A stretch of DNA of 32,718 nucleotides from a virus. Shown here piece by piece: positions 12,771-26,478 of this stretch. Positions within the stretch are counted from its first letter, which is position 1. The number at the start of each line of letters is the position of its first letter. A program made the position numbers and the translations under genes. The DNA lies in IMG/VR virus record IMGVR_UViG_3300042469_000063, positions 1 to 32,718 of that record. One strand, written 5' to 3'. The notes beneath the pieces are model-generated. The model ran no database searches. It saw nothing but the letters and a program-made list of their open reading frames with translations, and was not told where the DNA came from.

Positions 12771-13092
12771 AAACTATATAATCATTAGTTGTTTGATTTG
12801 CTACATATTGACCATCGTTAATTGAAAAATTAGCAATAACTTGATTTGTGCAAAATATTTTATCTTTATAAACTACATCAGTATTGTTAAGAATAGATAA
12901 CGTATAAAAGTTACCTTCTTTTAAATCAAATGTAGCTGTTGTGTATAGATAATAACCATCTATATAAAAATCAGATGTTATAGTAGTACTTTCATTTGTC
13001 ATTTCATTTACCAAAACTATTGATGTAGCAGCATAAGTTCTTGGAATGAATTTCAAAGATTGTTCTTCTACTTGCTCTTTTAAAATTATCAT
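12763..13092 (-). CDS. Small beta-rich structural protein, 109 aa
   Basis: Begins MIILKEQVEEQSLKFIPRTYAATSIVLVNEMTNESTTITSDFYIDG and continues with alternating strands (YLYTTATFDLKEGNFYTLSIL, KDKIFCTNQ). It resembles single-domain immunoglobulin-like structural proteins placed between tail tube and portal genes in similar phages. A head decoration or neck protein is possible. It follows a terminator, so it is likely the first gene of the portal transcript. Confidence 0.6.
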   Translation of the reverse strand: MIILKEQVEEQSLKFIPRTYAATSIVLVNEMTNESTTITSDFYIDGYYLYTTATFDLKEGNFYTLSILNNTDVVYKDKIFCTNQVIANFSINDGQYVANQTTNDYIVYE

Positions 13093-13135
13093 TATCTTTT
13101 TATTTAAAAATAAAAGTATATTAAAATTGTTTTAA

Positions 13136-13166
13136 AATAAAAAAGGGACACTTAAAGCATCCCTTA
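13136..13166 (-). terminator. Rho-independent terminator after the 176-aa gene
   Basis: Minus-strand stem AAGGGA/TCCCTT with an 11-base loop and a T-rich tail. It lies 24 bases after the stop at 13190. Confidence 0.75.
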
Positions 13167-13189
13167 ATTAAAAAACAAAAAAACAATTA

Positions 13190-13720
13190 TTAATCTGTAA
13201 TAATTACATTAAATCCAGTAGTTGATAAATCATTCAACAAGAAGTTTGCTGGAACTGGTTCCATTCCTGTAAGTGTTAATGTATAACCACTTAAATCACC
13301 CATAGCTGCACCAGTTACAACAGTTCCACCTGTTACATCCATTCCGTGTTCTAATCCACAATAAAAGAAATTACCATTGTTATCTTCAACAATTACTTGT
13401 GGTCTACCATAAGACAAAAGCTTAATTTGTTTGTTGTCTGTTATTGATAATTTTTTCAAAGTCAATGCCAATTCTTGTTGAAAGAATGTAGTACCATTTT
13501 CTCTAGAAGATGTAATTGTTTGTGTAAAAGATGAATTACCTTTTAACTCATATCTGTAAGCATCTGGAGTTCCACCTATTTCATCAATAGCATCTGTTTG
13601 GTCACCTGTACCATAAGTAAAACTTGTTACTTCCCCCCAATTTACAAAGTAAACTGCTTTTAATCCACCATTGCTATCTTTGCAAGGTTCTAATCTACCT
13701 AAACTAATATCACAAGCCAT
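13190..13720 (-). CDS. Putative major tail (tube) protein, 176 aa
   Basis: A beta-rich protein: ISLGRLEPCKDSNGGLKAVYFVNWGEVTSF (residues 4-33), RYELKGNSSFTQTITSSRENGTTFFQQELALTLKKL (56-91), then VIVEDNNGNFFYCGLEHGMDVTGGTVVTGAAMGDLSGYTLTLTGMEP (108-154). The fold pattern, length and high-expression context, being enclosed by its own terminators, fit a tail tube subunit. Closely similar proteins are standard in Bacteroidetes phages but are usually left unnamed. It lies next to the capsid gene instead of next to the chaperone gene, which is unusual. A head decoration protein is the main alternative. Confidence 0.6.
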   Translation of the reverse strand: MACDISLGRLEPCKDSNGGLKAVYFVNWGEVTSFTYGTGDQTDAIDEIGGTPDAYRYELKGNSSFTQTITSSRENGTTFFQQELALTLKKLSITDNKQIKLLSYGRPQVIVEDNNGNFFYCGLEHGMDVTGGTVVTGAAMGDLSGYTLTLTGMEPVPANFLLNDLSTTGFNVIITD

Positions 13721-13740
13721 ATTTTTATATATTTAAAGTT

Positions 13741-13769
13741 AAAAAAAAGGTGGTGTTTATTGCACCACC
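13741..13769 (-). terminator. Strong rho-independent terminator after the capsid gene
   Basis: Minus-strand stem GGTGGTG/CACCACC, seven perfect pairs with a seven-base loop, followed by eight U. It lies 24 bases after the capsid stop. As the strongest terminator of the window, it fits an abundant separate capsid mRNA. Confidence 0.9.
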
Positions 13770-13793
13770 CTTAATTTGATTAATAATTAATTA

Positions 13794-14756
13794 TTAGTTA
13801 GCAGCGTTAGTAATACCGTAAGTAGTAATATCTTCTACTATTCCGTATTGTACACCAGCTGTAAATCTCATTACAACTCTAACATTTTGCGAACCATCAA
13901 TATCAGCCATATCAATCAATTTAACTTCTTGGTTATCTGATAAAAGACCAGTTCCAAAGTACAAGTTAGATTTTTGAGCAGCAATAGCAACTGTTGGTGC
14001 TAATCCGTTTGCAACAAATATTTTAATTCCATCAAAAGAAAGTGAACCATTATTCCACCATTGTGTTCCCATTGCGTTTGTACCATTAGCACCTAAACCT
14101 GATGCACCAAATCCACCTAATGCTCTTACATATGCTCTTGCTGTTGCTTGAGAAACGTATAAGTATAAATCTTCTTTTCCGTATAATGTAGCTGGAATAG
14201 CATCAACTAATTTTCCTAATTCTGCGATAACTGTTGCAGCAGCAGTAATGTTTGTTGAAGTAGCAGCAACTTCTTGAGCAGCTGGTAAACCAGCATCTAA
14301 AGTAAGCAATCTTGTAAATCCGTTAAATTCTCCAGCATTAGCAGTAACACCAGCCCAAATGTTTCTTTCTGTTTTGTCAGCAACTTTAGCAGCAACGTGA
14401 GCTAATAAGAAATCAGCAAATGAAGGTGGCAAATTGTCGAAAGCAGAATATCCCATTTGAACGGCTTCCCAATCACTACGGAAATCTTTCTTACATAATT
14501 GTAGATTTACTTGGAATTCTTCTGGTTGTAAGATTTTTTCTGTTAAAGTTAAAGTAGAAGTTGCATCAAAATCACAAGTTGCATCTTTTACGATTGCATC
14601 AGTAGCAATCTTCTTAATTACTTCTTTGTATTTAACATTTGGTTTTACTTCAATACCACCATTTTCGATAGTTGAAGCACTTAATAAAGCTGCTGATATG
14701 TATTTACCTGCAAACTCACCAGCATAGGTTGTTGTAATACTTGTTGTTGTAGCCAT
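13794..14756 (-). CDS. Major capsid protein, 320 aa
   Basis: The N terminus is threonine-rich (MATTTSITTTYAGEFAGKYI). The central part holds DFDATSTLTLTEKILQPEEFQVNLQLCKKDFRSDWEAV (about 63-100), then LLAHVAAKVADKTERNIWAG. The C-terminal portion has VLYVSQ-like strand YLYVSQATARAYVRALGG and NLYFGTGLLSDNQEVKLIDMADIDGSQNVRVVMRFTAGVQYGI (about 260-310), as in HK97-fold capsid proteins of Bacteroidetes phages. Its codons are less A/T-biased than its neighbours, as for highly expressed genes. Scaffold and protease genes lie directly upstream and a strong terminator directly downstream. Confidence 0.88.
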   Translation of the reverse strand: MATTTSITTTYAGEFAGKYISAALLSASTIENGGIEVKPNVKYKEVIKKIATDAIVKDATCDFDATSTLTLTEKILQPEEFQVNLQLCKKDFRSDWEAVQMGYSAFDNLPPSFADFLLAHVAAKVADKTERNIWAGVTANAGEFNGFTRLLTLDAGLPAAQEVAATSTNITAAATVIAELGKLVDAIPATLYGKEDLYLYVSQATARAYVRALGGFGASGLGANGTNAMGTQWWNNGSLSFDGIKIFVANGLAPTVAIAAQKSNLYFGTGLLSDNQEVKLIDMADIDGSQNVRVVMRFTAGVQYGIVEDITTYGITNAAN

Positions 14757-14779
14757 TTTTTATTTAATTTTTATTTTTA

Positions 14780-15325
14780 TTATTTGTTTAATTTATTCAA
14801 TACTACATCAAATGTTGTAGCTTGTCTTTTTCTTGAATATAAATTCATTTTAACTTCATTAGTAGCTTCTGGATTGTGTGATAAAACTTCAATGTTATCA
14901 TTTGATAATTCTACTGTTTCTGTTTTAACACTTTTCAATTCAGCAATTTCTGCTCTTAATTTTTCAATTTCTGAAAAGAACATTTCTTTAGTTACACTTT
15001 CAACTACTCTTTTTGGTGTAGCTGTTTCAGTTGCCATTTCTTCTTCTTTTTTAGTAGTTTCTACTTCTTCTTCAACTTCAGGTGCTTCTTCTGGCATTTC
15101 AATAGATGCAATAACACCTTCAGTTTCTACTTTCAAAACATTACCATCTTCTAACATATATTCACCAACTGGCATTGGTACTCTTTCATCTTCATTAACA
15201 ATAAAGACTGCCATTTCTGGTTCAAATGTTTCTGCTTCAATAACAGTAACACCATCCATTAGTTTCATTTGAGCAAGTTTTACATCCATACCCAAAAGTT
15301 CTTTAATTTGATTTACTACGTTCAT
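14780..15325 (-). CDS. Scaffolding protein candidate, 181 aa
   Basis: An acidic protein. Residues 75-100 are rich in glutamate (EMPEEAPEVEEEVETTKKEEE), followed by a coiled-coil segment (MFFSEIEKLRAEIAELKSV, about 116-135) and a basic C terminus (LYSRKRQATTFDVVLNKLNK) that could dock to the capsid protein. Acidic, helical and placed just upstream of the capsid gene, it fits a scaffold removed by the XkdF-like protease. The N-terminal part (LAQMKLMDGVTVIEAETFEP, VPMPVGEYMLEDG) is a small beta domain also seen in comparable phage proteins. Confidence 0.65.
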   Translation of the reverse strand: MNVVNQIKELLGMDVKLAQMKLMDGVTVIEAETFEPEMAVFIVNEDERVPMPVGEYMLEDGNVLKVETEGVIASIEMPEEAPEVEEEVETTKKEEEMATETATPKRVVESVTKEMFFSEIEKLRAEIAELKSVKTETVELSNDNIEVLSHNPEATNEVKMNLYSRKRQATTFDVVLNKLNK

Positions 15326-15349
15326 ACTTTTTTTATTTACTTATTATTA

Positions 15350-15685
15350 TTATAAAGAATTATACAACTTCATATATTCACTGCTTAATTTTTCAGCATC
15401 ATTCTTTAATTTTTTAAATTTATCAGCAACTTCAGTAGCATCTAAATCAATAGCTTTTTTTATAGCATTATCAGCTTGTGCTGGTATATTTTGGTCTAAA
15501 ATAATTAAAGCTTGTGAATACATATTTTTTACTTTTTGTTTTTCAGCATTAGCTTCTTTTATCATATTAAAACCTTTATCAAATAAAGCTTGTAAATCTT
15601 GTAAAATTCCTAATTCTACTTTTGTATTTGCTAATTCTACTTTGTCAAATAACTTGTTACCAATCTTTGTTACTTCTGGTGTCAT
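15350..15685 (-). CDS. Coiled-coil head-module protein, 111 aa
   Basis: Almost entirely helical with heptad patterns: VELANTKVELGILQDLQALFDKGFNMI, IKEANAEKQKVKNMYSQALII and FKKLKNDAEKLSSEYMKLYNSL. It has no cysteine and no membrane segment. Placed between the protease block and the scaffold candidate, it may be a second scaffold component or an internal head protein. Family not recognised. Confidence 0.65.
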   Translation of the reverse strand: MTPEVTKIGNKLFDKVELANTKVELGILQDLQALFDKGFNMIKEANAEKQKVKNMYSQALIILDQNIPAQADNAIKKAIDLDATEVADKFKKLKNDAEKLSSEYMKLYNSL

Positions 15686-15734
15686 CTATTTTTTTATTTA
15701 AAAATTATTATTATTTAAACTTGTTATAAATTGG

Positions 15735-15923
15735 TTAGCCATTTGTTCTAACCATTGTTCTTACTCCATCAACTTGTGTTACTGTTGAAGTACCTTGTGC
15801 AACTGTTGAACCAATACCTTGATTTATTAATTCACCTTTGCAACATTCTGCTGAATATGTGCTATCATCACATAAACAACCTCTTTTAGCGTCTTTTGGA
15901 CTTGTGTATTTATTTTTTCCCAT
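15735..15923 (-). CDS. Cysteine-rich small head-module protein, 62 aa
   Basis: From the preferred ATG the protein begins MGKNKYTSPKDAKRGCLCDD and contains two cysteine pairs, CLC and CC, followed by GELINQGIGS. This is a well-preserved type of small protein next to protease and capsid genes in Bacteroidetes phages. The function is unknown to me; metal binding is possible. An upstream in-frame ATG at 15941 would add six residues but overlaps the protease gene end. The downstream ATG leaves a normal 10-base spacer and matches the usual protein start. Confidence 0.65.
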   Translation of the reverse strand: MGKNKYTSPKDAKRGCLCDDSTYSAECCKGELINQGIGSTVAQGTSTVTQVDGVRTMVRTNG

Positions 15924-15933
15924 TTTAAATATG

Positions 15934-16521
15934 TTAAACATTAATTAGTATTTGTTTTATTTTTTCAATCAATTCTTGCTCTTTACTTTCTTGTAGATTT
16001 AATTCTGCTTTTTCAGAGAAATATCCTTCTATGCTATATCCTTGATATAAACCATTTTTAACATCTGCCCAAACTTCATCATTGTCTATTCTTTGAACTA
16101 CAACCCAAGCACCTTCAACTGCATTTAAATTATAAATAGCTGATTTATCTTTTTTAATATCTTCAACTATCCAACTTTCAATTGTATAAACACCTTCTGT
16201 TTTCTTTTCGTGTTCTAATGTTGAATTATGTATTTTAAGTTTCTTTAAATATAATTCTGATGCTTTTCTAACTGTATCTTTTGAAAATCTAATGTTGTAT
16301 TCATAATCACCATTACGTCTGTAAATATCTTTTTCAGGAATTAAAGCTAAACCAATAACTATTCTTTTATCTTCATCAATAGTTTTTAATTCTACTTTGT
16401 GTTCATTTAGTGCAACCCAATTTTCTTCAATAGCTGGAAATTTAACTAAACTAATAGCATCAATTCCATCTTGAATATTTTCTTCGTCTATATCTAAATA
16501 AATAGTTTCTAACTTTTTCAT
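15934..16521 (-). CDS. XkdF-like prohead serine protease, 195 aa
   Basis: Residues 55-170 follow the XkdF-like protease pattern: VIGLALIPEKDIYRRNGDYEYNIRFSKDTVRKASELYL, then LKIHNSTLEHEK with the likely catalytic H104, and GLYQGYSIEGYFSEK with the likely nucleophile S163. Established knowledge: herpesvirus-type prohead proteases use a Ser-His core to mature capsids and remove scaffold. The protein is short and ends soon after the catalytic domain. In many related phages a long C-terminal extension follows; a domain of that kind is here on the portal protein. The 9 residues before residue 10 resemble the usual ETIYLDIDEE start. Confidence 0.85.
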   Translation of the reverse strand: MKKLETIYLDIDEENIQDGIDAISLVKFPAIEENWVALNEHKVELKTIDEDKRIVIGLALIPEKDIYRRNGDYEYNIRFSKDTVRKASELYLKKLKIHNSTLEHEKKTEGVYTIESWIVEDIKKDKSAIYNLNAVEGAWVVVQRIDNDEVWADVKNGLYQGYSIEGYFSEKAELNLQESKEQELIEKIKQILINV

Positions 16522-16566
16522 TATGCTTTTTTTTAAAAATTAAATTATTTATATTTTGTTTTAAAT

Positions 16567-16605
16567 AAGTATCATTAAGTCTGTTTTTATTAGTTAATGA
16601 TACTT
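16567..16605 (-). terminator. 12-bp inverted repeat, possible terminator after the tape measure gene
   Basis: AAGTATCATTAA at 16567-16578 is perfectly complementary to TTAATGATACTT at 16594-16605, with a 15-base loop. On the minus strand the U-tract after the stem is weak (TATTT), so termination may be partial, or the hairpin may protect the 3' end of an mRNA. It lies 11 bases after the tape measure stop. Confidence 0.6.
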
Positions 16606-16615
16606 TTAAGTAACA

Positions 16616-18634
16616 TTATCCTAAAGTAGCGTTTTGCACTATACCTCTATTTAAACCTTGTTGTGTAGTTACATCCGAACCAACAACAAATGCTTTTATT
16701 GGTTGACTATCTCTATTAGCTATACTTTCTGCTATTTGATTTGCACCACCTTGACCAACTACATTAAAACTTGGCGCACTTGGAGTACCGCCAGTTGAAG
16801 GAGAAGCACTACCACCACCACCGCCATTAGGTGTTTTAACTGCTAAAATCTTTTTAACAGATGCGTAACCTGAAGCTAATGCACCAGCTGCTGCAACTGC
16901 TCCCAAAGCAATACCTACGGGTCCTGGAACTGCTGATACCATTCCTTTAAATGCTGAAACTCCGGATTGTATTGTGTCTATTGTTGTTGCTGCTATTGCT
17001 GCTGCTTTTCCAGCTGCTGTACTTTCACCTAATAAAGTTGCTGCTGTTTTAAGACCAGATGACATTGATTGTAATGCTTTTTGTTTTGCTGCTGCTTCTT
17101 CTTCTGCTATTTTAACCCTTGCATCTTTATTTTCTTTTAGTAATTTTGTACGTTCTTCTTCTGATATATTAGTAGCTTCAGTTATTAATCTTTCTTGTTC
17201 TGTTAATGCTTCTAATTTTGTTTCAAAAGTTGCTTTATCATTTTCAATAATTAATTGTTCTTTTTCTAATTTTTTATTAAATCTATATGTATCAATTTCA
17301 TCTTGTGTAAGTGTAATTTGATTTTCTATTTCTTGTTTTTTAGTAGCGTATTCATTTTCAGCATCTATTCTTGCTTGTGTACCTTCTTTAGTTGTGTTAA
17401 TTACGTTTTGTAATCTTTCTAATTCTTGTGTTTGTGCAAATTCTAATGCTGATTTTTTAGCTAATAAAATAGCTTCTTCATCTTTTAATCTTTCAGCATC
17501 AAATTGTTTTTGGTCTATTGCTAATTGTGTTTCAGCTTCATTTTTGCTTTTTGTTAAATCTAATAGTTCTTTATTAAGTGCTAAATCATTTGCTTTTTGT
17601 TCTGACCTTAATCCTTCTATTTGTGCTAATACACCTTCCCTATTTGCTAAAGCATTAGTTAAAGCAACTTGATTTTCTATACTTTTGTTTTGTTGTAATG
17701 TAGCATTTGCAGCAGCTATTTGGGCATCAGCAGCACCAAGCATAGCTTTTTCTTGATTGTTTAAAACATTTTTTAAATCATTATTAGCTTTTATTCTATC
17801 ATCAACACTATTCCTTTCTTCATCTCTAATTTGTCTTAATTTTTCTGCTTGTCTATCATATTGTTCTACTAACCTTGCTTGATTTGCTTCTGCTAATTTT
17901 GCGTTATTTTGTAATTGTGTATTTGCTTTTGCTTGTTCATAAGCAGCAGAAACAGATATTTTAGAAACACCATCAATAGTTCCTTCAACAACTGCGCCTA
18001 CTTCACTAATAGCTGTACCAATATTATTTGCAACTTTCTTACCAGCTTCTAATGCATCTTTACCAACTTCAACAATATTATCTTTTGTAGTTGAAATTCT
18101 TTTATTTAATTTTTCTATTGTTTTAGCATCACCATCACCAAAGAAACTTTCTTCCCAAGCAAGTTTTGCTTCATCAATAGCTAAAGAAATTGAATAAAAA
18201 CCTAATTTTAAAGGTGTTAATGATAGTGTAATTAAACCAGATATTACTGCTGATAATCCTTTAAAGCCATCACTTGATTGATTTACTTTTTCAACAACTG
18301 AAACAACAACATCAACAACTTTACTAAATACATTTACAACAGTACCCATAGCAGTAGCGACTGTATCAGCAACTTTTTGATTGCTCATAAATACTTCTTT
18401 CAATGTACCCATAGCACTAATCACAAGACCAATGCCCATAGCTTTAATTGCTAATCCTACACCTTTAAACCCATCAGCTAAAGTCTTTGTACTTTTCTCA
18501 ACTTCATCTGTACTTTTACCAACTTTTTTTACTTCATCAGTTGTATTATCTAAATTTTTATTTAAAGATTTAATTTCTTTAGTTACATCATCAATGTTAC
18601 TATTTATCTTTAAATTTATTTCTTTGTTTTCCAT
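16616..18634 (-). CDS. Tape measure protein, 672 aa
   Basis: Residues 1-50 are charged helix. About 55-160 contain hydrophobic helices (GLAIKAMGIGLVISAMGTL, LSAVISGLITLSLTPLKLGFYSISL). Residues about 240-525 form a very long coiled coil rich in A, E, K, Q and N. About 530-600 are again hydrophobic and glycine/alanine-rich (GPVGIALGAVAAAGALASG), followed by a glycine/serine linker (GGGGGSASPSTGG). This is the classic tape measure arrangement. At the usual 1.5 angstrom per residue it predicts a tail near 100 nm. It is the last gene of the tail module, followed by the inverted repeat at 16567-16605. Confidence 0.88.
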   Translation of the reverse strand: MENKEINLKINSNIDDVTKEIKSLNKNLDNTTDEVKKVGKSTDEVEKSTKTLADGFKGVGLAIKAMGIGLVISAMGTLKEVFMSNQKVADTVATAMGTVVNVFSKVVDVVVSVVEKVNQSSDGFKGLSAVISGLITLSLTPLKLGFYSISLAIDEAKLAWEESFFGDGDAKTIEKLNKRISTTKDNIVEVGKDALEAGKKVANNIGTAISEVGAVVEGTIDGVSKISVSAAYEQAKANTQLQNNAKLAEANQARLVEQYDRQAEKLRQIRDEERNSVDDRIKANNDLKNVLNNQEKAMLGAADAQIAAANATLQQNKSIENQVALTNALANREGVLAQIEGLRSEQKANDLALNKELLDLTKSKNEAETQLAIDQKQFDAERLKDEEAILLAKKSALEFAQTQELERLQNVINTTKEGTQARIDAENEYATKKQEIENQITLTQDEIDTYRFNKKLEKEQLIIENDKATFETKLEALTEQERLITEATNISEEERTKLLKENKDARVKIAEEEAAAKQKALQSMSSGLKTAATLLGESTAAGKAAAIAATTIDTIQSGVSAFKGMVSAVPGPVGIALGAVAAAGALASGYASVKKILAVKTPNGGGGGSASPSTGGTPSAPSFNVVGQGGANQIAESIANRDSQPIKAFVVGSDVTTQQGLNRGIVQNATLG

Positions 18635-18765
18635 TCTCTTTTTATTTGTTTAAATGTTCTTGACCAAGTTGTTGGTAATTCATATTTACCTTTTGCAATT
18701 TCTATTGTTTCTGATTGTCCGTAATGCTCATCTAATTGTAGCATTTCAAGTATTAACTTTATCAT
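18616..18765 (-). CDS. Hypothetical protein between tail tip and tape measure genes, 49 aa
   Basis: A 49-residue frame (start MIKLILEMLQLDEHYG, end REWKTKK). Its ATG overlaps the TGA of the 867-residue gene as ATGA, and it runs 19 bases into the tape measure gene. The product has an acidic start and a basic C terminus with two tryptophans (TTWSRTF, KREWKTKK). Position just before the tape measure gene is where small tail assembly proteins occur, but no family is recognised. Confidence 0.6.
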   Translation of the reverse strand: MIKLILEMLQLDEHYGQSETIEIAKGKYELPTTWSRTFKQIKREWKTKK

Positions 18766-21365
18766 ATTCCAGTTTGTGTTACAATTATATTTTCAAGTTT
18801 TGCTGTTGAACCACCTATTTTATATTGTATTGTTATTAATTCAGTCCTATCTAATCCAGTTGTGTTTTCTGGAACTGTAACTGTTAATGTTATATCACTT
18901 ATATTATTACTTGGGTCACTATAAATCAAATATCCAGTCGAAGTTTTTACATTAAAACTATCATAATCATTTAAGTATATTTCTAAATCAAATGTTAATT
19001 CTTCTTTGTCTGTTTGAATTATATCCATACTTGCAAATCTATAACCTACTGTACTTGCTGCATCAACACCTCTGTAATCTGTTAATAGTTCTAAATCAGT
19101 TTCTCCAGTTGTTAAATCAGTAGTAAATGAATTTATAATATATCTTTTATTTCTTATTACTAATCTATCATTTAATGCAATTCCTAAAGGTATTCCAGCA
19201 CCATTTGTTACACTACTTCCTAATAAACTTGGTGGCAATAATGCTTTTGCTTTTACTAATCTTGTTTTTATGTTATAAAGATTATCTATAAAGTTTTTAT
19301 AGTGTCTAAAATACAATCCTTGTGGTGCTAATTGGTTTAACCAACTTGATTGTTCATTACCAAAATTCATTGTCATTAATTGAGAATGTGTAACATCTGT
19401 TGGCATATTATCGTATTCATTTGAGAAACGATTATAAGCATTTATTTGTGTTGCTGCCCCTACACTATTAGTTACATAAATTTGGTCTGTTCCAGTTAAA
19501 CCGGTTACTCTTTGACTTAAATAAATAAGCATAGGTTTTGGAATATAAGGTTTTTGGTCTTTGTCTATTAAAGTTGCAGTCTGAAATAATTTTCCTTGTT
19601 TTGGAACTTCAAATAAAACATTTTCAAATGGCAGTTTAATATCATAAGTAGAGTTCTCTGTAATCCTTTCTGAATTATAAATTAAGTCACCATAGTTTTG
19701 TTGGTATAAACCTTTATACGCTTCATTTAAGATGTTTTTACTCTCCTCATAAGTAAAGTTAATACTCTTGAATAACTTTGGCTTATTTATGCTCATTTCA
19801 TTTTCGTAAGTGTACTCTGTTATATCCAAAATCTTACCAGCATTGTAATACATTTCAAGTGGTAAAAACTCATAAGTATTATTCTGCCTTGGAATAATCA
19901 TTAAATTAAATGCTTTTATTATACCAGTTATAAAATCTATAATTTTCATATCTGGCATATAATTACCTATATTTATTATAGAACTTATATTATTAATTAA
20001 ATTTGTTATTACTCTAGATTGAGTTGTAACAAAATTACTAGTAGTATAATTAAAATATTGTTTTTGATAAAATAAAGATGCATTGTAAGTTAATGGAGAA
20101 GTCGCTGATAATTTAAAAGTATATCTATGATTTGCAGTTGGGTCATCTCTTCTTCTTACTCTATCAACTTGTATATCTTGAATTCCAGTTTGTGTAATTG
20201 TTGAAAGTAAAACCCCGTTTTTATATGTATATAAAACATAAGGAATAGTAGTAAAACCAGCATCTGGATTTACCCTAACAAATACTGTAAAATTTTGAGT
20301 GTTTCCACTTGAACTACCCCATCCCCAATTTGTTGTTAAAGTGTCTGTTGTTAAATTGAATTCTGGGAATGTTGGTGTATTAGGCGAAGAAGTTACAACA
20401 GAAGTAAAATTTAAATTTTCTGGCTGTGATATATATTCCATTTTTAAACTTGGCTTTAAATATAAATACAATTCAATCCATTGTTGTAAATTAAAAAAAC
20501 TTCCATTAAAATTAACTCCATATTTTGCTTCTATTCTTGCAAATATATTTTGTACTGTTATTGCTGGAAATAACTCATTCCATTTTATTGCCCCTCCTAC
20601 TGTAGTTATATCTGTTGGACTTCCATCTTGATAACTATATTTATTTGCGTTGCCTATTAAAGGATATCTAACATTAAAAAAACCAGTTATCCTATTTCTT
20701 ACCTCTGATGAAGTATAAATATGGTTAAAACTTGAAAAATCTAAACTTTGTAGTTTATCATCTTTTATTATATCTTTTAACTGCACCAAGTTTCCATAAA
20801 ACGTAACTGTATAACTTTCAATAAATCCGTCTTTTTTGTCTGCTTTTTCTAATTGAATAGTTCCATCTTTAAATCTATGTGTGTTTACTTCGATATAAGC
20901 ATCGTATCTCATTCTATGGTCAAAACCATTATCGATACTGCTTTCGTACCAATGCGATAAAATTTGATTATTATTCTTTGATGCTGGAATAGTAAAAGAC
21001 TGCGTGTAGTCTGTATATAATTTACCTATGTCGTTTGCGTTCCCAATTTGTGAAGTGATGCTAATTTTTTCATCTTTGAATAAATCTAACCTTTGGTATT
21101 CACTTTTGTATATTTCAAAATCATCTCCATTCGCTAATGGTATTGCAGTTTCAAAATCTATTTTAGTAGTATCGTTACCAGTTATCCAAGCTATTAATCC
21201 AGTGCTATCGCCAGAAATAATTTTAACATAATGACCTAAATATTGATTTGTGGTCATTGTCAAATTAGTACTCATTCCCAAAAATGGCGATGAATTATTT
21301 GCAGTAGTTTTGCCAGCAATTTCTAAAGTATTTTTCTTAATATAAACTTCTGTACTTAATTTCAT
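18762..21365 (-). CDS. Large tail-tip protein with C-terminal BACON-like domain, 867 aa
   Basis: N-terminal region contains RLDLFKDEKISITSQIGNANDIGKLYTDYTQSFTIPASKNNN (about 92-135), typical of a large tail protein found in Bacteroidetes phages. The middle (about 470-720) includes IDFITGIIKAFNLMIIPRQNNTYEFLPLEMYY, resembling tail hub proteins. The last 83 residues (785-867) resemble a BACON-like beta domain: LEIYLNDYDS, then LTVTVPENTTGLDRTELITIQY and a final IIVTQTGI. BACON domains in Bacteroidetes proteins and crAss-like phages are thought to bind glycans or mucin. It is probably part of the tail hub or tip. It is joined to the 356-residue gene by TAATG. Confidence 0.78.
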   Translation of the reverse strand: MKLSTEVYIKKNTLEIAGKTTANNSSPFLGMSTNLTMTTNQYLGHYVKIISGDSTGLIAWITGNDTTKIDFETAIPLANGDDFEIYKSEYQRLDLFKDEKISITSQIGNANDIGKLYTDYTQSFTIPASKNNNQILSHWYESSIDNGFDHRMRYDAYIEVNTHRFKDGTIQLEKADKKDGFIESYTVTFYGNLVQLKDIIKDDKLQSLDFSSFNHIYTSSEVRNRITGFFNVRYPLIGNANKYSYQDGSPTDITTVGGAIKWNELFPAITVQNIFARIEAKYGVNFNGSFFNLQQWIELYLYLKPSLKMEYISQPENLNFTSVVTSSPNTPTFPEFNLTTDTLTTNWGWGSSSGNTQNFTVFVRVNPDAGFTTIPYVLYTYKNGVLLSTITQTGIQDIQVDRVRRRDDPTANHRYTFKLSATSPLTYNASLFYQKQYFNYTTSNFVTTQSRVITNLINNISSIINIGNYMPDMKIIDFITGIIKAFNLMIIPRQNNTYEFLPLEMYYNAGKILDITEYTYENEMSINKPKLFKSINFTYEESKNILNEAYKGLYQQNYGDLIYNSERITENSTYDIKLPFENVLFEVPKQGKLFQTATLIDKDQKPYIPKPMLIYLSQRVTGLTGTDQIYVTNSVGAATQINAYNRFSNEYDNMPTDVTHSQLMTMNFGNEQSSWLNQLAPQGLYFRHYKNFIDNLYNIKTRLVKAKALLPPSLLGSSVTNGAGIPLGIALNDRLVIRNKRYIINSFTTDLTTGETDLELLTDYRGVDAASTVGYRFASMDIIQTDKEELTFDLEIYLNDYDSFNVKTSTGYLIYSDPSNNISDITLTVTVPENTTGLDRTELITIQYKIGGSTAKLENIIVTQTGI

Positions 21366-22435
21366 TATACGATGTTATTAATTAGTTTATTTGCAAAGTC
21401 AAACTCTAAAGTATAATTAATAGTTTTATCATTAAGAGATGTTTTCTTTTGCATACTTGTGGTCTTAATTGTAACCGGTGTTGCTGGGTTTAACAATATA
21501 GTATCGCTTAACATCATTTGCTCAATCCACTCGTAATAATCTTCTGTAACCCATCCAGTATTTACTTTTAAACTTCCATTTCCGTTTATATTAAATGGCT
21601 TTGTCTGTCCTTTACGATAATCATAATCAACCTCTTTTTGCATTAAAGCATAATCGCTATTTTTAACATCAATAGAATTGTAACTTGCTTTGAAAAATGC
21701 AAATTGATTCCAACCTCCTAGCTTATTTACGAACCACATTATTTGAATAGGGTATTTAGGCTCACATATTTTTTCAGTTTCTATTTTATAAATATTTCCG
21801 TATTTTTCACTATATATTTCAACTCTTACACTTTCTTTATATATTAAAGGAATTGCGTAATTAAAAAAATCATTATCTCCAGAATAAAATATTTCTCCTT
21901 TTAAAGCAGCTTCATCTTTATCTATCCATATAGCAGTATATTCATCTGATGTGTCTTTACATATAAAATTATAATAAGGTATAGTAGTACTCCAATATAC
22001 TTTTATTAATGGATTTGCAAGTAATAAATAATCTTTTTCTAGTGCTGGATAATAATTTAGTCCCTGTTCTACTGTTGAATATCCATTTACTGCACAAAAA
22101 GAAACTGTATCTAACAAAGTAAATTCAGTTTCATTTGTTTCATAAAAAGTCTTGTATTCTCCTATGCACCATTCCTTATTATCGGCTTGAGTTATTGTAC
22201 TTGACGAATATTGCAATTTAAACTTATCTATAAACTCTAAAATAAATGGCGATATATTATAATTGGTTTCTCTTTGTGTTACAGATGCAATTCCTTCACT
22301 CATTATATAAGTTGCATTTGTAGGTCTTGTACCTCCCTTATTCCAAAGTCTTAATTCAACCTTTGTTCTTATTTGGTTTGCCTCGTTTATAACAACTTGA
22401 TAAGGACTTCTAGCTAATATTACATTTATTGCCAT
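21365..22435 (-). CDS. Tail-tip / distal tail protein candidate, 356 aa
   Basis: Begins INVILARSPYQVVINEANQIRTKVELRLWNKGGTRPTNATYIMSE, a start I associate with a tail protein of Bacteroidetes phages. Further on it is beta-rich with many aromatic residues (YYPALEKDYLLLANPLIKVYWSTTIPYYNFICKDTSDEY) and near the end KPFNINGNGSLKVNTGWVTEDYYEWIEQMMLSDTILL. No membrane segment. It precedes the large hub-like protein, so a distal tail or hub role is likely. The exact equivalent in lambda-type phages is unclear. Confidence 0.65.
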   Translation of the reverse strand: MAINVILARSPYQVVINEANQIRTKVELRLWNKGGTRPTNATYIMSEGIASVTQRETNYNISPFILEFIDKFKLQYSSSTITQADNKEWCIGEYKTFYETNETEFTLLDTVSFCAVNGYSTVEQGLNYYPALEKDYLLLANPLIKVYWSTTIPYYNFICKDTSDEYTAIWIDKDEAALKGEIFYSGDNDFFNYAIPLIYKESVRVEIYSEKYGNIYKIETEKICEPKYPIQIMWFVNKLGGWNQFAFFKASYNSIDVKNSDYALMQKEVDYDYRKGQTKPFNINGNGSLKVNTGWVTEDYYEWIEQMMLSDTILLNPATPVTIKTTSMQKKTSLNDKTINYTLEFDFANKLINNIV

Positions 22436-22436
22436 A

Positions 22437-22997
22437 TTATTTATTTGTTATTGTATAATCTATTAATGTTTCTATATCGTCTCCAAATGCTTTTATTAAA
22501 TCTGTATCTATGTATTTTTTATATCCAGCTTCAAATGGTTTTGTAAAAAATAAAGAAGGTTTAATTCCCCTTGCCCATACATTCTTTGCTATAATATAAC
22601 CTATTGATTTATAATTGCCTTTTACAAATTTACCTTTTGCATCACGTAATCTTATGTTTCTAAACTTTGCCCATTGTTCAAATGGTGCTGAAGGTATTCT
22701 TCTTTTAAATTTAAATCTACTATTCGGTGCTTGTTGCCCTTTTACTTTTGCGTTAGGTGATACTTGTGTTGGGTCTGCACCTTTAACACCTTCATCTTGA
22801 TAAAAACCATAATCAGGCATACTAAAGCCTAATAAGAAATAATCTTTTTCAAATAGTATTTCACCTTTAATATTATTATAAAGTTGTTTAGAAACGTTCT
22901 TATTGCTTTTAGAAAGGTTACTTCTTGCTTGTTGAATAACATATTTCTTATATGCTTCTAAAACTTCTTTTGTAGATGTTAAATTATTAGCATTCAT
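22437..22997 (-). CDS. HK97 gp10-like neck / head-tail joining protein, 186 aa
   Basis: Contains a helical N terminus (EVLEAYKKYVIQQARSNLSKSNKN) and a central part with MPDYGFYQDEGVKGADPTQVSP, RFKFKRRIPSAPFEQWAKFR, and near the C terminus GIKPSLFFTKPFEAGYKKY. These features, the YxDEGVKG turn and GIKPSLFF followed by a helix, fit the HK97 gp10 family of neck proteins. I chose the ATG at 22997 over an upstream GTG at 23003. The gene overlaps the preceding tail completion gene by 11 bases. The order neck then tail completion is swapped compared with lambda-like genomes. Confidence 0.72.
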   Translation of the reverse strand: MNANNLTSTKEVLEAYKKYVIQQARSNLSKSNKNVSKQLYNNIKGEILFEKDYFLLGFSMPDYGFYQDEGVKGADPTQVSPNAKVKGQQAPNSRFKFKRRIPSAPFEQWAKFRNIRLRDAKGKFVKGNYKSIGYIIAKNVWARGIKPSLFFTKPFEAGYKKYIDTDLIKAFGDDIETLIDYTITNK

Positions 22998-23454
22998 CTT
23001 CACAACTTGTCATTTCATTAGCAACCATAACATCAAATGTAACTGTCCAACCAGCTATCTTATTTTCAAACCTATCTACAAATGGTTCACAATTTGGTGT
23101 GCCTTGTAACTGGTATAAATCATCATATAAAGTTCCACGTCTTAATACTTCTAATAATCTATTAATAACCATTAGTTGTGTATGTAATACATCTTGTTCA
23201 TTATCATTTGTTAAAAACTGGTCTGTTTGTTCAGTCTTACTAAAGTCAACAACATCCATACATAGAACTGATATATTAAACAACCAAGTGTTGCCATTGT
23301 ATGTAGCATTGTTTACAATAATATGCGACAAAGGAAATATAGTTTGCTTGTTTAAATCTATTTCAAATATATCACCAGATGAAACTGTATTTACAAATAT
23401 ATCTTTATATAGTTGGTCTTTTATTGCTGTTGTTATTTGATAAAATCCTTTCAT
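22987..23454 (-). CDS. Tail terminator / tail completion protein, 155 aa
   Basis: Starts MKGFYQITTAIKDQLYKDIFVNTVSSGDIFEIDLNKQTIFPLSHI, with the helix-then-strand arrangement of tail terminator proteins. It then has NATYNGNTWLFNISVLCMDVVD and AGWTVTFDVMVANEM, strands that would line the ring, and ends with an acidic CEDEC. Similar proteins in Bacteroidetes phages are placed between chaperone and neck genes. Its ATG shares one base with the TAA of the -1 frame of the chaperone gene, which strongly supports that frame being translated. Confidence 0.7.
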   Translation of the reverse strand: MKGFYQITTAIKDQLYKDIFVNTVSSGDIFEIDLNKQTIFPLSHIIVNNATYNGNTWLFNISVLCMDVVDFSKTEQTDQFLTNDNEQDVLHTQLMVINRLLEVLRRGTLYDDLYQLQGTPNCEPFVDRFENKIAGWTVTFDVMVANEMTSCEDEC

Positions 23455-23705
23455 TATTTACTTCTTATTAATTCAGTTTCTATTTCGTTCTTTTCTTTTT
23501 CAAATGTTAAAAATGTTAATGCAACTGAAAGTTTAAGTCTGGAAACATCTTCAAATCTTCTAACGTCTCCTTGAGCAATAGCATAGAATGATGAATACCA
23601 ACCCCATTTACTTCCAAATTGTGATTGTTTACTATATTCTGAAATTCCTGATTGTTCTCCAAATAGTGTATCGTAGACTTCAGTAATTCGTTGCCTAAAT
23701 TGTAA
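23454..23705 (-). CDS. -1 frame extension of the tail assembly chaperone, 83 aa
   Basis: From the slippery T run the -1 frame is open for 83 codons, without any ATG, to a TAA that forms TAATG with the next gene. It encodes an aromatic, conserved-looking segment: EVYDTLFGEQSGISEYSK, SKWGWYSSFYAIAQGDVRRFEDV and a helical end (FLTFEKEKNEIETELIRSK). An open frame of this length without a start in such A/T-rich DNA is unlikely by chance. The product would be a 246-residue fusion with the first 163 residues of the chaperone, comparable to lambda gpGT. It overlaps the frame-0 tail for 62 codons. Confidence 0.78.
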   Translation of the reverse strand, partial: LQFRQRITEVYDTLFGEQSGISEYSKQSQFGSKWGWYSSFYAIAQGDVRRFEDVSRLKLSVALTFLTFEKEKNEIETELIRSK

Positions 23706-24193
23706 AAAAAAACCACAGCACCTAATACAACATCAACTGGTGCATATTTCATTGCATCACAATAAGTATAGCTTCCATTGTATTCTTCAATCTGATATTT
23801 ATCTTTTAACTTCTTTGTTATTGGTCTATATAAAACTGCCATAGCATTATGCATCTTATCCCAATCACTTATGTATTTATCTAAATCAGTATATTCACCT
23901 AATGTTATTTCATCAAGGTTAGTTATAAAACCAAATTCAGTATTACCTAATTTAAATGTTTTTTTCAAATCATATTTTTGTGTGAATAGATTTGATAGGT
24001 TACTTGTTATTTCATTAACATCTTTAAAACTTATTTTAGCAGCATTCTTTAAATCTATACCACAAAATATTTCTACCATTTTATGTTGAAGGAAATCACC
24101 ATCAGGATTATCTTTAGCTATTGATAAAAACTTTTGATACTGCTCTAATGTTATTTCATCTAAACTTGTTGGTATTGTAATCTGTAACTTCAT
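23516..24193 (-). CDS. Tail assembly chaperone, frame-0 product, 225 aa
   Basis: Begins MKLQITIPTSLDEITLEQYQKFL and has a second similar stretch (LDEITLGEYTDLDKYISD), then VLYRPITKKLKDKYQIEEYNG and PVDVVLGAVVFFYNLGNELL (about 150-170). This resembles large tail chaperones in Bacteroidetes phages. Frame 0 continues past the slippery run for 62 codons to a stop at 23516. That tail (TIHYLENN, NGVGIHHSMLLLKETLEDLK) also looks like real protein. It would bind the tape measure protein during tail assembly. It follows a terminator and is probably the first gene of the tail transcript. Confidence 0.75.
   Translation of the reverse strand: MKLQITIPTSLDEITLEQYQKFLSIAKDNPDGDFLQHKMVEIFCGIDLKNAAKISFKDVNEITSNLSNLFTQKYDLKKTFKLGNTEFGFITNLDEITLGEYTDLDKYISDWDKMHNAMAVLYRPITKKLKDKYQIEEYNGSYTYCDAMKYAPVDVVLGAVVFFYNLGNELLKSTIHYLENNQEFQNIVNNHNLEVNGVGIHHSMLLLKETLEDLKMFPDLNFQLH
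23705..23711 (-). promoter_or_regulatory. Slippery heptamer T TTT TTT for -1 ribosomal frameshifting
   Basis: Codons GTT TTT TTT TAC lie within a run of nine T (plus-strand A at 23704-23712), giving a perfect X XXY YYZ heptamer in frame 0. Re-reading one T yields codon TTA and the -1 frame. Both tRNA slips keep full pairing. No strong downstream pseudoknot was identified by eye. Confidence 0.72.
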
Positions 24194-24237
24194 TGTTTTT
24201 TATTTAAAAATAAAATAAAGTCTAAATTGTATTAAAC

Positions 24238-24267
24238 AAAAAAAAGACCTACATTTCTGTAAGTCTT
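24238..24267 (-). terminator. Rho-independent terminator upstream of the tail chaperone
   Basis: Minus-strand stem AAGAC-TACA paired to TGTA-GTCTT with one mismatch and a four-base loop, followed by eight U. It ends the transcript of the two small genes at 24292-24659, so the chaperone needs its own promoter, not recognised, or read-through. Confidence 0.8.
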
Positions 24268-24291
24268 AATTCAACCATTATTAACCAAAAT

Positions 24292-24462
24292 TTAAACCAA
24301 TTCTTCTATACTTTCTATTTTACGATATACTAATCTTTTATCTAAAAATTGTTTCATAGCATCTAATTCATTTAATGCTTCTATAATAATTTCTACATCT
24401 GTGCTTTCATCATTACGTTCTGTCCAGTAAGTTATTATATACTTTGTCATATATGTTTTCAT
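24292..24462 (-). CDS. Hypothetical protein, 56 aa
   Basis: Starts MKTYMTKYIITYWTERNDES and ends KRLVYRKIESIEELV, with a helical middle (VEIIIEALNELDAMKQFLDK). It begins five bases after the stop of the 63-residue gene and is closed by the terminator at 24238-24267. A second ATG is four codons downstream. No family recognised; a regulatory protein of the early type is possible. Confidence 0.62.
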   Translation of the reverse strand: MKTYMTKYIITYWTERNDESTDVEIIIEALNELDAMKQFLDKRLVYRKIESIEELV

Positions 24463-24467
24463 TTTAT

Positions 24468-24659
24468 TTAATATCCTTTTAAATTTACATTTATATTTCT
24501 TGTTTGAATTTTATTATTTGAATTACAAAACCATACTTTATAAGTAAATGAAGTTTTACCTTCTTTTATTGTTTCTACGTTTGTACGTTCACCTAAAGAA
24601 ACTTCTAATAAATCAGCTTTGATTGTCATTAATTGGTATGCTTTGTCTTGAGTTGTCAT
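24468..24659 (-). CDS. Hypothetical protein, 63 aa
   Basis: A small mixed alpha/beta protein: MTTQDKAYQLMTIKADLLEVSLGER, then TSFTYKVWFCNSNNKIQTRNINVNLKGY. The start TTQDKAYQLM slightly recalls the MTPxEKA proteins of this genome. It is preceded by a clear -7 box at 24692-24699 and forms a two-gene unit with the 56-residue gene downstream. An insertion of an early-type unit between terminase and tail genes is suggested by its promoter type. Confidence 0.65.
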   Translation of the reverse strand: MTTQDKAYQLMTIKADLLEVSLGERTNVETIKEGKTSFTYKVWFCNSNNKIQTRNINVNLKGY

Positions 24660-24691
24660 AATTTCTGTTTTTTTGTTTGTTTTAACTTGTA

Positions 24692-24755
24692 CAAATATAT
24701 AAACATTTTATTAACTAAAAAACTATTTACAAATTTTAACAAAACTTTAACATTT
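24692..24755 (-). promoter_or_regulatory. Bacteroidetes-type promoter with CTTTAACATTT element
   Basis: Minus-strand TATATTTG at 24699-24692 matches TAnnTTTG and lies 33 bases upstream of the ATG at 24659. A copy of the plus-strand 11-mer CTTTAACATTT is at 24745-24755. The -33 region is T-rich without a clear TTG. It drives the two small genes down to 24292. Confidence 0.65.
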
Positions 24756-24810
24756 ACAAATGTTTTATATTATGTACATAAACTACAATATTGTTTTAAA
24801 TATAATACAT

Positions 24811-25035
24811 TTAACTTTCAAAGTTTTCATCATATATCATTCCAATATGCAAATCAATTAATGCTAAACACTTTCTTTTTATTTCTTTAATCTTATACGT
24901 ATCTTTTTCATCAATCATATACGTATCAAAACCTTCAACTGCATTTAAAGCACTATTGCACATAGATATTATTTCATATCTTGTATCTGCTGCTTCAAAT
25001 TCCATATTCTCAAATATATCTTCTTCTTCTTTCAT
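24811..25035 (-). CDS. Hypothetical acidic protein, 74 aa
   Basis: From the ATG at 25035 the protein starts MKEEEDIFENMEFEAADTRYEIISMCNSAL and ends HIGMIYDENFES. It is acidic and helical. A TTG at 25050 in the same frame would add five residues but lies in a TATATTGA promoter-like stretch, so the ATG is preferred. Family not recognised. The 150 bases downstream hold the promoter of the next unit. Confidence 0.6.
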   Translation of the reverse strand: MKEEEDIFENMEFEAADTRYEIISMCNSALNAVEGFDTYMIDEKDTYKIKEIKRKCLALIDLHIGMIYDENFES

Positions 25036-25076
25036 TACTTTTTGTGTCAATATAAACCCTAATTTTAATAGTTATG

Positions 25077-25226
25077 TTACAACAAAAGGTAATCACTTGC
25101 CACACTATACATTTGTTTCATTTTCTTTATTTCACCTACGTTTCTTGGTAAGTTAATCTGAACTTCTTTATTAGTCATATGATGTATATAACATTGTATT
25201 GCTGCTATTATTTGTCCGTAAGTCAT
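25077..25226 (-). CDS. Hypothetical protein after the large terminase gene, 49 aa
   Basis: Starts MTYGQIIAAIQCYIHHMTNKEVQINLPRNV and ends MKQMYSVASDYLLL. Alternating helical and strand-like parts; two histidines and one cysteine at residues 12-16. It lies 85 bases downstream of the terminase stop, in between which two operator-like palindromes occur. A small DNA-binding regulator acting there would be attractive, but no helix-turn-helix can be proven. Confidence 0.5.
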   Translation of the reverse strand: MTYGQIIAAIQCYIHHMTNKEVQINLPRNVGEIKKMKQMYSVASDYLLL

Positions 25227-25232
25227 TAGTAA

Positions 25233-25313
25233 AATGATAATATAATGTTATTTTGCATATATTTTAAATATTAAAAGTATTAAATACACTTAAAATAACA
25301 ATATAATGTTATT
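25233..25313. promoter_or_regulatory. Pair of operator-like palindromic 20-mers
   Basis: AATAACA-ATATAA-TGTTATT at 25294-25313 is a palindrome with seven-base arms. A second copy at 25233-25252 differs at two bases in one arm. The copies are 61 bases apart, six turns of DNA, flanking a gene-free stretch between terminase and the 49-residue gene. This looks like a binding site pair for a dimeric regulator. Confidence 0.5.
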
Positions 25314-26478
25314 AATATATGAAATAGTTTCCTTTATGTGGATTTTCTAATTGACTTGTCATTGCATAACGCATAGCATCTATTGCGTGGTTGTATGCAT
25401 CTATTGGTCTATTCATTTTCACACCTGTTTTATCTGTTTGCCAAATGTAGTTTCTTAATTCGTTAATTAAGTTCTTGCTTCTTGATGTAACATAAACTTT
25501 GTTTTGATTAATTAAATTAAGACCAAATAAGATACTATCTTTTCCTTTTGTAACTGGTAATACATTATGACCATAACTATTTAATTCAGCTATTGATTTT
25601 GGCTCAGCACTATCAGCGTAAACAATTTCGTTTACATTATTTGCTTTTAACAAATTAGATATTTCACTATTTAATAAACCCTTTTTATAAATTACTTCAT
25701 CAAATATATATGCATCATTGTATTTATACATAGTTACTAATGATGTTGGGTCATTTGAATATCCAAAATCCATTCCGTAACATAATATTCTTGCATCAGT
25801 TGGTAAATCTATTTCTTGCCAATCTGGAATACATACACCTTCTAAACTTCCTGTTTGACCTAATCCATAAACTTGCCACCAGTTTGCCCAATATGTAGAT
25901 GTTAATGCTTTTACTTTAGCTGCTTCTATTTCATTTACTATTGTTTCTGATAATGCTTCATTGTCTAAATAAGTCAATGTAATAAAATCAGTATCGTTTT
26001 GCGTTAGTATTTCTTTATCAACCCAAAATGCTGAAGTAGGATTATAATCTAACCATATATCACCTGATGTTCTAATTGCTAATTGATAGTAACTTTCAAA
26101 ATCTATATTGTTGCACTCGTTTACATATAAAATGTTTCTTCTTGCACCTCTTAATTTATCTGGTTGGTCTACACTAAAAAATTCAATATAACTTCCGTTT
26201 GCAAATGTGTACTTTAAAGTACTTTTATTAAACTGTGCATCATTATACCTACCTAATGCCATTATAATCTTTAAGAAGTCTTTTAAAGCACCTCTACGCA
26301 AATGTGGTATGCTTTCAGATACTACACTTATTTCTAAATTTGGTTCTTTAATTGCTTTATCAATTAACAAAGGCAGAATACCAAATGTTTTACCAGCTGA
26401 TGTTCCACCTCTAATAACTTTAATACGCTTCTTTAAACGCAATAACTTTTTAATTGCAGTAGTAAGTATAAACTCCAT
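25312..26478 (-). CDS. terL: Terminase large subunit, 388 aa
   Basis: The ATPase half has Walker A GGTSAGKT (24-31) and Walker B with catalytic glutamate NILYVNEC (E121). A coupling motif region follows (WLDYNPTS, about 142-149). The nuclease half has the metal-binding aspartates D237 in GMDFGY, D289 in VYADSAEP, and D367 in YNHAIDAMRY. The protein is of the PBSX/XtmB type. It packages DNA into the prohead and cuts concatemers. The small subunit gene lies 12 bases upstream. The stop codon overlaps the palindrome at 25294-25313. Confidence 0.95.
   Translation of the reverse strand: MEFILTTAIKKLLRLKKRIKVIRGGTSAGKTFGILPLLIDKAIKEPNLEISVVSESIPHLRRGALKDFLKIIMALGRYNDAQFNKSTLKYTFANGSYIEFFSVDQPDKLRGARRNILYVNECNNIDFESYYQLAIRTSGDIWLDYNPTSAFWVDKEILTQNDTDFITLTYLDNEALSETIVNEIEAAKVKALTSTYWANWWQVYGLGQTGSLEGVCIPDWQEIDLPTDARILCYGMDFGYSNDPTSLVTMYKYNDAYIFDEVIYKKGLLNSEISNLLKANNVNEIVYADSAEPKSIAELNSYGHNVLPVTKGKDSILFGLNLINQNKVYVTSRSKNLINELRNYIWQTDKTGVKMNRPIDAYNHAIDAMRYAMTSQLENPHKGNYFIY

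Follow-up and report, generated by a model that had tools for sequence, protein, structure and literature searches.

Tail chaperone genes with a programmed slip are already known. The frame-0 stop usually follows the slip after no more than some tens of nucleotides, and the short form is then roughly a truncated version of the long form. U_UUU_UUU is a classical ribosomal heptamer. In phage lambda, gpG and gpGT are encoded in the tail module, share their N-terminal part and are separated into a short and a long form by a -1 transition at G_GGA_AAG, and the extension can be reached only through the slip. The characterised tail chaperone slip sites are ribosomal (PMC5009743), and frameshifting of 6-7% has been measured for two of these genes (PMC3711429). 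The distance between the slip and the frame-0 stop has a mean of 26 nt in the SEA-PHAGES training set and of 36 nt in the set of Xu et al. (PMC10885494). We have analyzed a gene on a viral stretch of DNA of 32,718 nt (IMG/VR record IMGVR_UViG_3300042469_000063; hereafter the window) that resembles lambda G/GT in all the general features named above, with the fusion protein being predicted from the sequence. However, it slips at nine T's, and, unlike lambda, it encodes two selected C-termini in one shared stretch of ~190 nt. The first-pass annotation had claimed that the frame-0 stop lies much farther from the slip site than in lambda G/GT, and the averages of 26-36 nt for known chaperone sites bear this out. 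There is no detectable sequence family match between lambda G/GT and the window gene. We consider it probable that the locus is a G/GT-like tail chaperone gene with a selected short-form C-terminus and a programmed slip to the long form.

The features of the gene and its surroundings are collected in Table 1. Residues 1-163 of the window ORFs are common to both products, and the -1 part adds 83 residues to give a predicted fusion of 246 aa. The perfect in-frame T TTT TTT heptamer described in the first-pass annotation is present and lies inside a longer run of nine. Its figures of an 83-codon -1 frame without ATG, of a TAATG junction and of 62 further frame-0 codons in the ORF 24193-23516 are all correct in the window. 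The -1 codons span 23705-23457, and the TAA at 23456-23454 overlaps the start codon of the next gene. The homologue comparison reveals a conserved KWGWYSS...FEKEKNE domain in the extension. A separate start for the -1 part was rejected, since the -1 frame of the window holds no ATG in any of its 83 codons; likewise, the first 45 -1 codons are free of ATG in 70 of 78 representatives. The third frame offers no way on either, being shut within 10 codons in all 78, usually after two.

Table 1. Position of the slip gene, its coding parts and neighbouring genes in the window
Feature	Position	Strand	Evidence or remark
Terminase large subunit, upstream of the slip gene	25312..26478	-	P12024S/L have the same neighbourhood
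Frame-0 ORF, short 'G'-like product, 225 aa	23516..24193	-	phrog_32199, E 3e-21
Slip site, unbroken run of nine T's	23704..23712	-	Codons 161-164 = GTT TTT TTT TAC (23713-23702)
In-frame T_TTT_TTT heptamer within T9	23705..23711	-	Third base of codon 161 and codons 162-163
TAG shutting the third (+1) frame two codons past T9	23695..23697	-	Window sequence
-1 extension, 'T'-like, 83 codons and TAA	23454..23705	-	Weak phrog_38404 match
Dual-coded stretch, frame-0 codons 164-225 and stop	23516..23704	-	Overlaps the -1 extension; ~189 nt
Next gene, 155 aa	22987..23454	-	phrog_30964
Following module gene, 188 aa	22437..23003	-	phrog_29822
Tape measure protein, five genes downstream	16616..18634	-	phrog_3336, E 3e-14

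Searches were made separately with each half, and hundreds of viral contigs, mostly metagenomic, as well as bacterial genome assemblies were found to carry both. The gene family is large and belongs to phages of Bacteroidota, mostly Flavobacteriia. The two halves stand in a -1 relation in all 198 distinct homologues, down to ~30% identity, and the claim of a programmed -1 frame transition is thus supported by conservation in hundreds of relatives. Among the 196 correctly anchored homologues the run counts nine T's in 187 and ten in 9, and none has fewer than nine; the other two loci, L163 and L123, were mis-anchored, and the contig of L163 has T9 as seen through L115. From these sequences, the conserved run length seems to be nine rather than seven. 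Wherever the run is placed, it contains a correctly phased T_TTT_TTT, while the run itself occupies three codon phases (e.g. GGT TTT TTT TTG or ATG TTT TTT TTT CTG). In the usual phase the two slip-site Phe codons are always TTT, and TTC makes up 21% of the upstream Phe codons. One T9 copy (L322) belongs to a prophage carried by a chromosome contig of 3.9 Mb, of the family of a Flavobacterium genome.

An assembly error, a decaying gene or a phase-variable T run would be another way to account for two half-frames at one run. A different T count, which the first-pass annotation had named as evidence against its reading, was found out of phase in only 1 of 198 contigs: L123 (IMGVR_UViG_3300008259_001646) is the sole relative with an out-of-phase T10 that would place both parts in one frame, and it may be either an assembly error or a natural variant. 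Against this single contig stand the identical T9 and phase in independent assemblies, in an isolated phage pair and in a chromosomal prophage, together with the conservation of both halves. The conserved phase, from which L123 alone deviates, contradicts phase variation or assembly error, and we give this whole group of explanations hardly any probability.

The isolated pair, Nonlabens phages P12024S and P12024L (L146 and L147), are true homologues with the same T9, the same -1 domain and the same post-terminase neighbourhood. They differ from the window gene in a frame-0 tail of only 25 codons. GenBank splits the locus into hypothetical proteins of 175 aa and 55 aa (gp38/gp39 in P12024S, gp40/gp41 in P12024L). 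By their sequences, each of these pairs seems to be a single gene whose -1 transition at T9 was overlooked, and halves that are annotated apart would hence belong together.

The length of the frame-0 tail was surveyed in 78 representatives under 85% identity. In 64 of them the tail runs over 52-65 codons, and that of the chromosomal prophage L322 counts 67. The 13 members of a sister clade (L154-like; e.g. L237-L256 and L284) have tails of 18-54 codons, so the length of the tail has changed more than once. This clade offers a natural series for overprinting studies. Regarding an interrupted frame, which had been put forward as a possible refutation, neither frame is broken in the main clade, but the tails of P12024S/L and of the sister clade are shorter or variable.

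The shorter tails would suit a passive tail, in which only the -1 extension is functional and the frame-0 tail is a by-product that merely lacks stops. However, the avoidance of stops is far above chance: tails of at least 50 codons occur in 40 of 42 representatives, while 2.0 are expected when the synonymous codons of the -1 frame are randomised. On a tree of 131 sequences, frame-0 changes to or from a stop make up 1 of 1068 in the overlap versus 54 of 339 just downstream. Synonymous change in the -1 frame is suppressed as well. At -1 codons with an identical amino acid in divergent pairs, the same codon is used in 75% of cases in the overlap versus 55% in the single-coded part upstream; saturation predicts 53%, and the single-coded part is thus near saturation. 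Of the changes in the overlap that are confined to the frame-0 third base, 78% leave the frame-0 amino acid as it is (67% expected), whereas the same class of changes downstream of the frame-0 end is synonymous in 41% (56% expected).

Constraint is also visible at the level of residues. Under a more stringent null in which frame-0 stops are forbidden as well, the frame-0 BLOSUM excess is 1.47 for tail codons 1-16 and 0.73 for codons 43-54, compared to 0.51 in the control region. A cleaner control that leaves out the start region of the next gene did not change the result of this amino acid test. A hydrophobic heptad is found at frame-0 positions 200, 204, 207, 211 and 214, and position 207 (L207) is hydrophobic in 98% of sequences versus 39% expected. 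Tail codons 17-42 show an excess no higher than the control, and this weak constraint in the middle of the tail is again what a passive tail would predict. Because the excess is present at codons 1-16 and 43-54 and absent at 17-42, we take both ends of the overlap to be dual-coded and its middle to be at least kept open; for codons 17-42, selection may act mainly against stops. Given the constraint at both ends and the conserved heptad, we regard a passive tail as improbable. The parsimony and codon tests were made on clustered representatives rather than with a full codon model. As judged by these substitution patterns, both frames are under purifying selection across the overlap, most weakly at frame-0 tail codons 17-42. 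The alignment in both frames with a test of constraint, which the first-pass annotation had proposed as a check, therefore finds both frames constrained, and the long dual-coded overlap that it described is genuine on the grounds of stop avoidance, suppressed -1 synonymous change and residue-level constraint.

Two machines could perform the slip. If RNA polymerase slips on T9, some mRNAs would carry ten U's and would be read normally as the fusion. Transcriptional slippage sets in at nine A/T in many bacterial genomes (PMC1088944), and runs of 9 A or T are listed as slippage-prone (PMC5009743). The slip site is the only A/T run of at least nine in the 32.7-kb window, where 9.9 are expected from base neighbours. 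When the slip site is left out, A/T runs of at least nine reach 0.18 of expectation in 1.08 Mb from 160 related loci; the reduction is mild for lengths of five to eight, at 0.59-0.78 (0.59 at eight). The abundance of A/T runs hence drops at nine, matching the transition described in PMC1088944. However, this avoidance of long runs may stem from replication slippage. The observation that the run never falls under nine in three codon phases also favours polymerase, although the amino acids of both frames favour flanking T's too. Known genes with 9A/9T slippage (Thermus dnaX, IS elements and Shigella genes; PMC1088944, PMC5009743) likewise have an unbroken run of nine A/T and two products, and polymerase slippage is a candidate reading for the window gene. 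We found no phage tail gene with 9A/9T transcriptional slippage in the openly accessible literature.

Alternatively, the ribosome slips on U_UUU_UUU, as the ribosome does in lambda G/GT at its own site. The correct phase of the heptamer in all placements and the precedent of ribosomal slip sites in tail chaperone genes (PMC5009743; PMC3711429) speak for the ribosome and, in the latter case, against polymerase. For a ribosomal slip, however, seven T's or an interrupted U_UUU_UUC should suffice, yet none occur. Furthermore, no stimulatory RNA structure was found: the single-sequence fold has a z of -0.04 and is no better than shuffles, and no base pairs appear in the consensus computed from 27 homologues. 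Each of four Shine-Dalgarno-like motifs occurs in the 20 nt before the run in at most 3 of 78 representatives. The lack of a conserved structure and of such an element is in line with polymerase slippage. The run-length rule slightly favours polymerase, to which we give about an even chance, over the ribosome, which we place just short of even. Concerning the 'programmed frameshift' of the first-pass annotation, the -1 transition stands, but its ribosomal origin is not established and polymerase slippage fits at least as well.

What the two products do can be approached through gene context and protein models. The slip gene is located in the tail module, on the same strand as the tape measure gene and upstream of it, but not adjacent to it as in lambda. 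The order is terminase, two small ORFs, slip gene, genes for 155, 188, 356 and 867 aa, and tape measure; the succession of terminase, slip gene and small genes is common to P12024S. The wider order in the window (10962-26478) is unusual: the terminase is followed by the slip gene, the small tail genes and the tape measure, and after these come the protease and the probable capsid and portal genes. The frame-0 ORF matches phrog_32199 at E 3e-21. With E values up to 1 allowed, the window protein matches no Pfam family, and 41 relatives yield one weak Phage_TAC_7 match (E 0.099); phrog_166 ('tail protein') is matched weakly in 8 of the 41.

The frame-0 and -1 parts of the fusion were modelled separately. 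The AlphaFold model of the frame-0 protein has a pLDDT of 81.6, and its helix 153-180 runs across the slip point. The -1 model also begins with a helix, at lower confidence, and both products probably continue one helix with different residues past the slip. Foldseek of the models against the PDB gave nothing at E 0.001, and a sequence search of solved structures gave nothing. The VIA rows mostly align with the helical tail only. Among the re-aligned chains, the one tail chaperone structure is HK97 gp13 (PDB 2OB9), placed on the N-terminal residues 1-71 of the model (Z 3.6, 66 residues, rmsd 4.0, 4% identity), a weak match that could be chance.

The tail chaperone claimed in the first-pass annotation is therefore upheld in part: its gene neighbourhood and the design with two products agree with this identity and make it likely, not proven, while the tape measure lies five genes off, no Pfam tail chaperone match is above threshold and the HK97 fold match is weak. 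In the mechanism that we propose, one tail-module gene would give two proteins with a common N-terminal part of 163 residues. Without a slip, the 225-aa short form would be made, whose last 62 residues form the selected and largely helical tail. A slip of one base back at T9, equal to one extra U, would produce the 246-aa form with its 83-residue domain. From the likeness to gpG/gpGT we infer the chaperone function and the stoichiometry, with many short and few long copies that would act as chaperones of the tape measure and bring in tail-tube subunits. The ratio of the products of the slip gene probably matters.

A tail chaperone gene with polymerase slippage or with a functional, overlapped short-form C-terminus was not found in the openly accessible literature, and as far as that literature goes neither so long and conserved a dual-coded overlap nor a strict T9 has been described before. 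About 60 codons that are open and constrained in two frames imply products with different, separately selected C-termini. The family is thereby a natural overprinting system with hundreds of variants, and the T-run rule provides a testable case for telling polymerase from ribosome slippage in a structural gene. Frameshift finders that are trained on short slip-to-stop distances likely miss such genes. A tentative view, which we hold to be somewhat less probable than its opposite, is that in a widespread family of Bacteroidota phages the chaperone ratio is set by polymerase slippage on T9, and that the short form has a functional C-terminal helix overlapping the T-like domain.

Some observations concern more distant sequences. 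Five single viral ORFs of 226-258 aa in BFVD (A0A6J5SVK3, A0A6J5N3F3, A0A6J5MY57, A0A6J7WDG4 and A0A516L611) match both half-models, which suggests that they may be distant relatives encoding the fusion without a slip. DNA of slip-free fusions was not found in the distant scans, in which all the true homologues that turned up had the frameshift too. Two candidate distant homologues, L327 and L328, seemed to match by chance. In Flavobacterium phage 6H (L235, 10048-10927), gp10 is an ORF of 191 aa and corresponds to R9VW65, a weak fold match; neither a T run nor an evident -1 homologue is present at gp10. The unannotated gap of 300 nt that follows holds an open frame ending ...LWEILIRMYDITKRSLDEEAAYKKLEKK. 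Within the overlap of the window gene, TATTTGGAG at 23657-23665 (frame-0 residues 177-179, -1 codons 14-16) codes Leu-Phe-Gly in the -1 frame and Tyr-Leu-Glu in frame 0. It is kept in 26 of the 27 homologues of alignment A7, and the remaining one has TTTTTGGAG.
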